From NCBI GenBank assembly GCA_944388145.1, contig CALXHQ010000002.1, positions 186,001-250,000 on the forward strand: a DNA stretch of 64,000 bases, in the 5' to 3' direction. Shown piece after piece: positions 36,967 through 41,570 of this stretch; the first letter of the stretch is position 1, and each line of letters begins with the position of its first letter. The translations under genes and the position numbers were made by a program. Under the pieces are notes generated by a model. The model saw only the letters and a program-made list of their open reading frames with translations, was not told where the DNA came from and ran no database searches. The stretch comes from an uncultured Gemmiger sp. (GTDB lineage: Bacteria > Bacillota > Clostridia > Oscillospirales > Ruminococcaceae).

Positions 36967-37641
36967 TCAGCCGTTCTGCCGGGTCCTGTCCAGAATCACC
37001 TGCTTCAGTGCGGCAAAGCTCTGCTCAATGTCCAGCTCGCTGGTGTCCACCAGCACTGCATCCTCCGCCCGGCGCAGGGGGGCAGCGGCCCGGTGGATGT
37101 CCTGGTCGTCCCTGCGGCGGATGTCCGCCAGCACGGTGTCATAGTCGGCAGGCTGGCCCTTGGCCGCCAGCTCGGCGTAGCGGCGCTGCGCACGGGCCTC
37201 CGGGCTGGCGGTCAAAAAGATCTTGACAGTGGCGTCCGGCAATACCACCGTGCCGATATCCCGGCCGTCCATCAGCACGTCCCGGCTTTTGGCCAGGCTG
37301 CGCTGGGTGTCCAGCAGGAAAGCCCGCACGGCGGGGTTTGCCCCCACGGCGGAGGCTGCCATGCCCACCTGCTCGGCGCGGATGGCATCGGACACATCCT
37401 CGCCGTTGAGCAGCACATGCTGCACGCCGTCCTGCAGACGGATGTCCAGATGCACCTCGGGCAGCAGGGCCTCGACGGCGGCGTTGTCAGCCGGGTCCTT
37501 GCCGGCGCGCAGGGCGTACAGGCCCACCGCGCGGTACATGGCGCCGGTGTCCACATAGGTATAGCCCAGCTCGGCGGCCAACCGCCGCGCCATGCTGGAT
37601 TTGCCGGCCCCGGAGGGCCCGTCGATGGCAACAGAGATCAT
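36967..37641 (-). CDS. cmk: Cytidylate kinase
   Basis: 224 residues. P-loop IDGPSGAGKSSMARRLA, substrate-binding YVDTGAMYRAVGLYAL, and DGRDIGTVVLPDATVKIFL. It phosphorylates CMP/dCMP. ATG at 37641 follows AAAAGGAG. First gene of cmk-plsC-ispH/rpsA; the promoter must lie in or beside the repeat-filled region upstream. Confidence 0.95.
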   Translation of the reverse strand: MISVAIDGPSGAGKSSMARRLAAELGYTYVDTGAMYRAVGLYALRAGKDPADNAAVEALLPEVHLDIRLQDGVQHVLLNGEDVSDAIRAEQVGMAASAVGANPAVRAFLLDTQRSLAKSRDVLMDGRDIGTVVLPDATVKIFLTASPEARAQRRYAELAAKGQPADYDTVLADIRRRDDQDIHRAAAPLRRAEDAVLVDTSELDIEQSFAALKQVILDRTRQNG

Positions 37642-37857
37642 GAAAATTGCTCCTTTTGTGATGAAAATTGGGGTTGGCGGTTCTATTTTGCGGGAGGATG
37701 CCCGAGGTGGGGGAGAAATAAACGGCAGACTGACAGGCCGTTTTTTCTCAGCCCGGCGGGGATTCTGGTTTCGATTTTAGCGGCAGGGTGCCGGGGGCGT
37801 TTTTTCTCAGCCTGGCGGGGTTTCTGGTTTCTTTTATACCGGCAGACTGCCGGTAGC

Positions 37858-38334
37858 ATTCTTCTTTCATCACTGAAAGAAGAATCAAGAAAGGTGCCAC
37901 CGGTTTCGAGGCGGTGGACGCACGAGCAAAGGGCCTTGCCCTTTGCAATCCTGCCTGCGATAAACGGCAGCCGCCCCGCCAACAGGTGGTGCCCGGCCCT
38001 ACCCTGCGGGCCGGGGGATCGTTTTACTCCCCCCGTAGCGCCTGCCGGCAGGTACATGGCAGAATTTGTAACATTTGCTCACCGTTTGGTTTCTCCTGCG
38101 GTTGCCGGCAGGAACGCTCTGCACGGGCAGCCTTGAACCTGCCGGCAAGGCAGCGGGGGCGAGAATACGTTTCCTCGGCCCGCAGGGTAGGGCCGAGCGC
38201 ATCCCGGTGGTGGGGTGGCTGCCGTCAATCTTGGGCGGGAGTCTTGAGGGCAAGGCCCTCAAGCCGGCGTCCACCGCTTCGGAACGGTGGCTCCTTTCTC
38301 GGTTCCTCTTTCGGGGACGAAAGAGGAACGCCTC
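37858..38334. repeat. Family B structured repeat, two full copies in inverted orientation
   Basis: The 766-bp gap 37642-38407 has no gene. Left copy 37858-38034 and right copy 38155-38334 (opposite strand) each show four hairpins in the same order. (i) 37858-37885 / 38303-38328; (ii) CCACCG...CGGTGG at 37897-37917 / 38271-38290; (iii) 37926-37946 / 38243-38263; (iv) 37992-38015 / 38174-38197. Loops are conserved (TCAC or TCCC; CTT; TACCCTGC) while stems change by paired substitutions. The unit is flanked by CTGCCGGCAGG-type palindromes around 38041-38053 and 38103-38112. Confidence 0.7.
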
Positions 38335-38407
38335 CCGCCGTGCAACGGTAAAAGTAAAACCCGCAACGCTATCGGGCCGGGAAAATGCCCCAACGGCAGC
38401 CTGCCGT

Positions 38408-39631
38408 TTATACCCCCCGGGCCGCCGCCTGCGCCGTGGCCCAGGCGATCTGCAGGTTGTAGCCGCCGGTGCGGGCGTCCACGTCCAGCACCTCGCCGGC
38501 AAAGTACAGCCCGGGGCAGAGTTTGCTCTGCATGGTTTTGGGGTCCACCTGGCTGCAGGCCACGCCGCCCGCGGTAATAACCGCGTGCTGCAAATCTCCC
38601 AGCCCGCTGATGGGCACCTGCCAGTGCTTGCACAGTGTGACCAGCGCCTGCTTTTGCTCCCGGGTGATCTGGGCGGCGCGGGTGGCGGGGTCAATACCCC
38701 ACTTTTCCACCGCCACCGGCCGCATCGACCGGGGCAGCAGCTTTTCCAGCGCGCCCTGGGCGCTGTGCCCGCCCAATGCGGCGAAATCCCGCGTCAGGCG
38801 GTCGTACAGTGTTTTTTCCTCCAGAGCGGGCTTCAGGTCGAACTCGCAGACATAATCATGCCTGGCAAAGTCCTCGATCCAGGTGGAGGCGGACAGCACC
38901 AGCGGCCCCGACAGGCCAAAATGGGTGAACAGCGCCTCGCCCTGCTCGTGGAACACCGGGCGGCCGTCCTCCAGCAGCGTCAGCGCCACGTTTCGCAGCG
39001 AAAGCCCCATCATCCTCCGGCAGGCCAGGTCGGGGGAAACCAGGCTGCACAGGCTGGGCTGGGGCTGCGTGACCGTGTGTCCCGCCTGCCGGGCCAGCCT
39101 GTAACCGCTGCCATCGCTGCCGGTGCTGGGGTAGCTCTCGCCGCCGGTGGCCACCAGCACCGCCCCTGCCCGCAGTTCCCGGCCGTCGGCGGTACGCACG
39201 CCCATGCAGCGGCCGTCCTCAATCAGCAGCTTTTTGGCGGAGCCGTGCAGCAGTTCCGCGCCTGCGGCATAGCGGCGCAGTGCCTCCAGCACGTCGGCGG
39301 CGCGGTCACTCCGGGGAAAGACCCGCCGCCCCCGCTCGGTTTTTAGCGGTACGCCCAGGCGCTCGAACAGCTCCATCGCCGCGGCGGGCGGAAAGGCGTA
39401 CAGCGCCGAGTACAAAAACCGCGGGTTGTGCCGCACCATCGTCAAAAATGTGGGCACATCGCAGTTGTTGGTCAGGTTGCAGCGCCCCTTGCCGGTGATC
39501 AAAATTTTCTGGCCGGGGCCTTTGGGGTTGTGCTCCAGCAGCGCCACCCGGGCGCCCCGCTCGCAGGCGGCGCCCGCGGCCATCAGCCCGGCGGCGCCTG
39601 CGCCCACAATCAGCAGGTCAGGCATCGGCAT
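38408..39631 (-). CDS. HI0933/BaiN-family flavoprotein (NAD(P)/FAD-dependent oxidoreductase)
   Basis: 407 residues. FAD dinucleotide-binding motif LLIVGAGAAGLMAAGAACERG, then ITGKGRCNLTNNCDVP and ATGGESYPSTGSDGSGY, the signatures of the HI0933 family ('aminoacetone oxidase-like'). The C-terminus YNLQIAWATAQAAARG closes the FAD site. Substrate unknown; the family includes bile-acid reductases, but this cannot be assigned. ATG at 39631 follows AAGGAGG and overlaps the upstream membrane-protein gene by 14 bp. Confidence 0.88.
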   Translation of the reverse strand: MPMPDLLIVGAGAAGLMAAGAACERGARVALLEHNPKGPGQKILITGKGRCNLTNNCDVPTFLTMVRHNPRFLYSALYAFPPAAAMELFERLGVPLKTERGRRVFPRSDRAADVLEALRRYAAGAELLHGSAKKLLIEDGRCMGVRTADGRELRAGAVLVATGGESYPSTGSDGSGYRLARQAGHTVTQPQPSLCSLVSPDLACRRMMGLSLRNVALTLLEDGRPVFHEQGEALFTHFGLSGPLVLSASTWIEDFARHDYVCEFDLKPALEEKTLYDRLTRDFAALGGHSAQGALEKLLPRSMRPVAVEKWGIDPATRAAQITREQKQALVTLCKHWQVPISGLGDLQHAVITAGGVACSQVDPKTMQSKLCPGLYFAGEVLDVDARTGGYNLQIAWATAQAAARGV

Positions 39632-41460: not shown

Positions 41461-41570
41461 CCGGAAACCTACCGGCAAAACGGCGGGGGCGACAAAACGT
41501 TCCCTCGGCCCGCAAGGTAGGGCCGAGGCCTCCCGGTAAAGGGGTGCCTGCCGTTCCCCGTCCCGCCCAA
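41461..41570 (-). repeat. Family B structured repeat, partial third copy
   Basis: In the 271-bp gap 41304-41574. Hairpin (iv) is present as CTCGGCCC (41504-41511) and GGGCCGAG (41520-41527) with loop TACCTTGC on the minus strand. The flanks CGGGGGCGAC-AAACGTTCC and GGGGTGCCTGCCGTT match the right copy at 38150-38230. Hairpins (i)-(iii) are missing. A separate stem GGAACGATGC/GCATCGTTCC at 41401-41422 lies just outside. Confidence 0.6.

Follow-up and report, generated by a model that had tools for sequence, protein, structure and literature searches.

An interspersed palindromic repeat in Gemmiger carrying a predicted pseudoknotted variant of the intrastrand-triplex motif

An inverted unit of ~700 nt sits between a gene for a TIGR00275-family flavoprotein and cmk, both on the minus strand, in the 64-kb stretch of Gemmiger DNA analyzed here (the window), which belongs to a host genome of 2.73 Mb in 29 contigs. 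The unit consists of two ~220-nt arms facing each other across a spacer of ~100 nt, with each arm continuing 5' into a 59-nt unit and a GC palindrome and 3' into the palindrome CCTGCCGGCAGG. The outer ends, which are approximate, are inverted over 22 nt with 82% complementarity, giving the unit the terminal inverted repeats of a MITE. Both arms fold better than their shuffled versions (z between -5.0 and -5.2, with 0/200 shuffles folding equally well). The features are as follows.

~37711..38418, strand not applicable: whole inverted unit, ends approximate; two convergent arms plus spacer
37711-37732 and 38397-38418: inverted outer ends of the unit, 22 nt, 82% complementary (repeat search)
37736..37853, plus strand: tandem 59-nt outer unit at the end of arm A (repeat search)
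37821..38054, plus strand: arm A (profile match, 221 bits)
37858..37885, plus strand: arm A hairpin i, made of pyrimidine strand, loop TCAC and purine strand (sequence, fold)
37886..37893, plus strand: arm A purine linker mirroring the purine stem strand, candidate third strand (perfect 7-nt motif)
37894..37896, plus strand: arm A GTG, complementary to loop CAC at 37871-37873, predicted pseudoknot (loop-pairing analysis)
37897..37917, plus strand: arm A hairpin ii (sequence, alignment)
37926..37946, plus strand: arm A hairpin iii (sequence, alignment)
37992..38015, plus strand: arm A hairpin iv (sequence, fold)
38041..38052, plus strand: arm A 3' palindrome CCTGCCGGCAGG (sequence)
38135..38367, minus strand: arm B (profile match, 209 bits)
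38302..38329, minus strand: arm B hairpin i, loop TCCC (sequence, fold)
38294..38301, minus strand: arm B purine linker mirroring the purine stem strand and overlapping the first base of GGA (perfect 7-nt motif)
38292..38294, minus strand: arm B GGA, complementary to loop TCC, predicted pseudoknot (loop-pairing analysis)
38271..38290, minus strand: arm B hairpin ii (sequence, fold)
38243..38263, minus strand: arm B hairpin iii (sequence, fold)
38174..38197, minus strand: arm B hairpin iv (sequence, fold)
41465..41558, minus strand: third arm, 3'-partial, from hairpin iv to the end (profile match, 51 bits)

A preliminary description of this DNA had reported a repeat of ~180 nt with four hairpins, present as two copies on opposite strands. 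The coordinates, strands and stem sequences of these hairpins are confirmed in the sequence, and it is the extent that needs correction, since the arms reach ~220 nt and the inverted unit as a whole spans ~37711-38418. The third, partial copy placed at 41504-41527 is likewise genuine, with its length of 24 nt being too short for a match that the profile extends to 41465-41558 on the minus strand.

The repeat is dispersed in the host genome, where a covariance model search finds 14 arms, and blastn and profile searches add shorter arm fragments. Nine of the 14 arms occupy gaps between identified codirectional genes (two arms each in flavoprotein/cmk, argC/argJ, mnmE/mnmG and mnmG/rsmG, and one in argG/argH). 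By BLAST, the repeat is matched in 13/35 genomes of the genus and in 0/26 genomes outside it, and arms are also present in other Gemmiger records (loci L193 and L240). Convergent arm pairs are found in G025, G021, G014, G010 and G007 besides the host genome (G000), and G025 carries its own diverged versions of the repeat in the same two mnm gaps. Counted from where the protein match stops, 769 nt separate the flavoprotein gene from cmk here, vs 20 to 255 nt in 27 of the 28 other genus genomes measured. That count leaves out three genomes without a flavoprotein match, two others, and G023, in which the contig breaks off within the gap. The exception, G030, is the nearest relative by protein identity and has a gap of 813 nt holding other sequence, with no match to the repeat family found in its genome. 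G023 is the only second genome with this insertion at this site; its copy has the same junction and occupies the final ~240 nt of a contig of 7 kb (G023:C137; L146, L045). Because identity to the window jumps sharply from ~77% to 92-100% inside the end of the flavoprotein gene, ~70 nt before its end, this contig end reflects either recent transfer or a chimeric assembly. Comparison with the empty gaps reveals no target-site duplication that is obvious by eye, and in the retrieved host-genome loci the 1- to 4-kb frames between opposed arms contain housekeeping genes only. With dispersed copies, a gap that is short in most relatives and inverted pairs, a palindromic mobile repeat, one of the options raised in the preliminary description, is the best fit.

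Several further observations concern the gaps of the genus. Many copies lie at contig ends in G009 and G025, and copy numbers in draft genomes are therefore likely underestimates. Short derivatives with nothing but an outer unit, a single hairpin i and a second, inverted outer unit are seen at L031:4043-4144, L037:10733-10832 and L039:15260-15359, the product expected from a deletion running between the two arms' palindromic hairpins i. Other palindromic families of the genus (CCTTCCCCC...GGGGGAAGG...GGATGAGGGGC and GTAGGGGCGG...) fill the same gaps in other species (L108, L111, L138, L100, L121), as if gaps shared by several such families were insertion hot spots. The mnmE-mnmG insertions of other Gemmiger (L102, L111, L114) show AATAATAAATAATAAATA-type frame repeats around an ORF of ~120 aa, whose product may resemble S23-type (four-helix) proteins. 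In many Gemmiger (L097-L107) the mnmE-mnmG gap is ~500 nt long and, by eye, apparently holds an ORF for a small membrane protein of ~150 aa; this ORF is absent from the window genome, in which a repeat unit occupies the gap.

Hairpin i has the same layout in all seven aligned genomes: its 5' strand is rich in pyrimidines and its 3' strand in purines, and a purine linker separates it from hairpin ii. Scanning both strands of the window for perfect 7-nt motifs in pyrimidine-purine-purine (Y-R-R) order returns exactly two, at 37862-37893 (plus strand) and 38294-38325 (minus strand), i.e., one in each arm; 60 random sequences matched in dinucleotide composition contain no such motif. The literature describes intrastrand triplex motifs (PIT, BoxC, TM-ECO) as DNA repeats that are abundant in bacteria and associated with genome instability, and the published finder, as set out in the main text of its source, requires three runs of 6 to 15 nt in Y-R-R order, canonical triads and loops of 1 to 6 nt (PMC4666352). 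Both arms satisfy the ITxF sequence criteria, having perfect runs of 7 nt and loops of 6 and 5. The TM-ECO/BoxC consensus CCCTCNCCC...GGGNGAGGG...GGGNGAGGG is not found in the hairpin i sequence.

The linker tends to mirror the purine strand in these sequence comparisons, which is the geometry that a third strand would need. Among 66 distinct purine 8-mers, considering runs of at least 6, the mirror run exceeds the direct one in 11 and falls short of it in 2, compared to permuted means of 2.8 and 3.5 (maximum 8 each, 300 permutations). In a looser test, mirror beats direct only 32 to 29, with the direct similarity also exceeding permutation (2/1000, vs 0/1000 for mirror), and in a crude first test the direct reading leads in pan-bacterial loci (129 vs 95) and order loci (10 vs 7) and the mirror reading in Gemmiger (32 vs 18). 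Mirror and direct are often indistinguishable because the purine tracts are A-rich, and the first mirror tests are uninformative because of A-runs. We therefore regard the mirror rule as less strongly supported than a second regularity, which is that the loop of hairpin i complements the bases directly 3' of the linker (CAC/GTG and TCC/GGA in the window arms), predicting an H-type pseudoknot. Sequence comparison strongly supports this predicted loop pairing. In the Gemmiger surroundings the summed match over 18 distinct loops is 55, vs 38.4 +/- 2.6 when permuted (0/5000), and in the pan-bacterial set it is 171 over 53 distinct loops, vs 129.5 +/- 5.6 (0/2000), with 20/53 loops pairing over at least 4 nt. 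The pairing is also significant for motifs picked by the mirror rule alone, both in Gemmiger and order loci (23 loops, 0/2000) and in pan-bacterial loci (61 loops, 0/2000). In viral loci holding the E. coli-type motif (34 loops) it is not significant (943/2000), nor is it in a second set of 80 loops (525/2000).

An A-rich version of the hairpin pattern recurs well beyond the genus, with at least 120 stretches (raw count) in the genome collection. The 80 matches listed include Gemmiger, other Oscillospiraceae, Mucilaginibacter, Pedobacter, Saprospiraceae, Pseudomonas mosselii, Patescibacteria, Sulfurovum and one archaeon; one Acetobacteraceae MAG, PLFB01, accounts for 19 of them. The stem pair that the pattern does not force is Watson-Crick in 95/96 distinct segments (loci L180-L259 and L300-L306), the exception being G-G. 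Across 295 genomes of the order, the same pattern gives 16 matches in 6 genomes and its backward control none, the unforced pair being complementary in 15/16 matches (exception T-G). The R1 model matches 11/295 order genomes at E <= 0.001, host genome included; G265 (E 1.8e-10) is convincing, several weaker matches show the layout by eye, and L152, L153 and L160 look like chance. Two wider asymmetric hairpin patterns were rejected, as ACTTCTTT..AAAGAAGT occurs in 14/398 phylum genomes and ACTCTTTT..AAAAGAGT in 3/295 order genomes, fewer than their backward controls (~21 and ~9 genomes, respectively, by hand count of rows). One order relative, G222, carries the A-rich hairpin plus linker in ten almost identical copies on six contigs and is a good genome in which to seek a mobilizer.

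With respect to placement, the pan-bacterial set comprises 123 copies, 31 of which lie at locus edges, leaving 92 that are placeable. We observe that 63/92 are intergenic, compared to ~11% of positions drawn at random from those loci, and since ORFs were called mechanically, some of the 29 "inside" copies may be spurious. Copies lie a median of 70 nt from the nearest stop codon (n = 54), and convergent gene pairs outnumber divergent ones around the pan-bacterial copies (17 vs 9). There is no strand preference: relative to 37 codirectional gene pairs, orientation is the same in 18 cases and opposite in 19. Many units in PLFB01 (L185-L259) consist of hairpin, A-tract, long GC palindrome, T-tract and inverted hairpin, some of them directly after a stop codon, and from their sequence they look like bidirectional terminators flanked on both sides by the putative triplex hairpin.

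Compensatory change in the Gemmiger stems is far beyond chance. In an alignment of 38 arms (37 distinct) from seven Gemmiger genomes, the stems pair in 98.5% of cells, two-sided changes occur in 13/21 pairs, and 103 two-sided cells are counted vs only 2 one-sided ones; none of 500 shuffles reaches the covariation score, and slid controls score much lower. Of these arms, 35 come from 59 matches to a hairpin-ii pattern, which biases helix ii, not helices i and iii, towards pairing, and three come from the profile, after removal of one spurious match, near-duplicates and arms lacking hairpin i. The paired substitutions initially noted between the copies in the window are therefore real over 38 arms, and covariation does not disappear when more copies are aligned.

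The preliminary description read such covariation as direct evidence for selection on RNA (or single-strand DNA) structure; for RNA, the composition of the pairs does not support this reading. G-U pairs account for 2/764 paired cells in the repeat stems (0.26%), vs 138/697 (19.8%) in the SRP RNA of the same genus, where variant cells are 53 one-sided vs 33 two-sided. This control rests on 30 genus genomes (21 distinct; 33/35 matched, 32 above cut-off, 30 loci available), its structure being an RNAalifold prediction and some of its G-U pairs invariant; when variable pairs alone are considered, G-U makes up 32.0% in SRP RNA vs 0.4% in the repeat stems. Compensatory change passing through G-U intermediates, as looked for in a structured RNA, is not what the repeat stems display. 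The near absence of G-U pairs and the 18:19 orientation, with no strand preference, both indicate palindromes that are maintained as DNA. Low G-U content could partly reflect exchange of whole modules; the stem types of hairpins i, iii and iv combine differently in different copies, and the order of modules is constant across species.

These counts bear directly on the possibility that the repeat is a structured RNA, 3'-UTR or operon-internal, in which a pseudoknot and a U.A-U triple helix on the pyrimidine-leading strand would stabilize or process mRNA. In triple-helix pseudoknots, the third strand is made of pyrimidines and runs parallel to the purine strand, and the complementary strand of the arms offers just this arrangement, in addition to the strong fold z-scores, the stem covariation and the location of copies near stop codons. 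Even so, besides the G-U deficit and the absence of strand preference, inverted pairs would place one sense and one antisense arm in each transcript, presence among the members of the genus is patchy, and no Rfam match supports it, so that we consider an RNA function unlikely. A known RNA family, which the preliminary description had named as a finding that would refute it, was rejected, as Rfam yields 0 matches above the gathering threshold in the 64-kb window and, at 37600-38500, one chance match to a microRNA model (E 2.3). The same near absence of one-sided change is what templated correction predicts, and the stems might be functionless and kept complementary by templated hairpin repair (quasipalindrome correction) along with recombination between copies, in keeping with the differing combinations of i, iii and iv stem types. 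Such repair leaves unexplained the pairing of the loop to bases outside the stem, the mirror linker and the constant module order across species, and we hold it to be quite improbable. A cassette that terminates or attenuates transcription, perhaps in both directions, and that spread between genes is very improbable, given that the T tracts serving as tails are weak and mixed and that strong termination between argC/argJ, argG/argH, mnmE/mnmG or mnmG/rsmG, all codirectional, would be harmful if these are operons, despite 5 terminator-like sites vs 1.5 expected at 37600-38500, the A-tract, long GC palindrome and T-tract of several Acetobacteraceae MAG units, and the excess of convergent (17) over divergent (9) gene pairs.

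The search for a mobilizer or source did not single out a candidate. The host genome has 0 matches to a Y1 (RAYT) transposase, which is present in 19/35 genomes of the genus; among the 13 repeat-bearing genomes, 7 have no Y1 match (G000, G007, G015, G021, G023, G032, G033), while the other 6 have at least one. A RAYT-moved REP was rejected for the lack of a match to this transposase in the host genome. No mobility gene is found among 30 of the 105 hairpin-adjacent ORFs, the number scanned in other bacteria (20 with a Pfam match and 10 without), and a cargo or partner gene was rejected, as none of these 30 neighbors has a mobility domain. A phage or plasmid origin was likewise set aside, with blastn of 37660-38420 matching neither collection.

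Compared to known systems, the arms share with PIT, BoxC and TM-ECO the Y-R-R order, the mirror third strand and the run and loop sizes described in the main text of Holder et al. (2015, PMC4666352), as well as the occurrence as inverted repeats. They differ in being A/G-mixed or A-rich, whereas TM-ECO-type motifs are G/C-rich, and in embedding the motif in a 220-nt arm with further palindromes, unlike the triplex motifs presented there (PMC4666352). Moreover, in the Gemmiger arms the loop complements the bases that follow the third strand, which is not the case in the TM-ECO loci, and the main text on intrastrand triplex motifs makes no mention of a pseudoknot (PMC4666352). That account also reports that the E. 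coli motif forms a triplex in vitro, with footprinting giving no support for stable formation in vivo (PMC4666352). Like REP/BIME sequences as described in PMC2817692 and PMC3733652, the arms are extragenic palindromes in alternating orientation, repeated within one genome; unlike the REP/BIME-RAYT systems outlined there, they measure ~220 nt and their host lacks a Y1 transposase. The palindromes of REP/BIME-RAYT systems have 20-40 bp and a GTAG or CGTC tag. Like the MITEs covered in PMC2759123 (ERIC, RU elements), they are short non-coding inverted repeats between genes, although they are multi-hairpin where those have simple inverted ends, and no target duplication or parent transposase was found. 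They also resemble the stem-loop repeat families of Cozzuto et al. (2008, PMC2267715) in being intergenic with a common predicted fold; that survey covered 40 genomes, and the words "pseudoknot," "triplex" and "compensatory" do not appear in its main text. A literature search of limited scope returned no account of the Gemmiger repeat or of the exact hairpin-linker strings. Judging from its sequence, we class the element as an interspersed palindromic DNA repeat with a predicted pseudoknotted variant of a known intrastrand-triplex motif.

We therefore favor, with a probability of roughly 0.6, a non-autonomous interspersed DNA repeat of foldback or BIME-like type that carries a pseudoknotted variant of the intrastrand-triplex motif. 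A ~700-nt inverted unit would have inserted between the flavoprotein gene and cmk, with arms or pieces of it lodged in other intergenic gaps. Its stems may be kept since the element acts, or gets repaired, as single-stranded or extruded DNA, e.g., in a lagging-strand gap, and the putative triplex-pseudoknot located at the arms' outer ends could tag the element for an enzyme acting in trans or for a stalled fork during copying. Any folding of RNA upon transcription of the unit would then be a by-product. More tentatively, and on balance doubtfully, the arms could belong to a cross-phylum class of DNA repeats set by a rule and not by sequence, in which the triplex-pseudoknot would be the tag for a non-RAYT machine acting in trans. 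The rule of such a class, a possibility we put no higher, would be a pyrimidine/purine hairpin, a mirror linker and loop-complementary bases, extending over Clostridia, Bacteroidota, Alphaproteobacteria and Patescibacteria.

Repeats of this kind could be misfiled as novel RNAs from covariation alone, and the G-U content of covarying stems, taken together with strand bias, offers a simple way to tell DNA-level palindromes from structured RNAs. The proposed triplex-pseudoknot tag is directly testable with oligonucleotides, and a checkable folding rule connects unexplained intergenic palindromes of unrelated bacteria.
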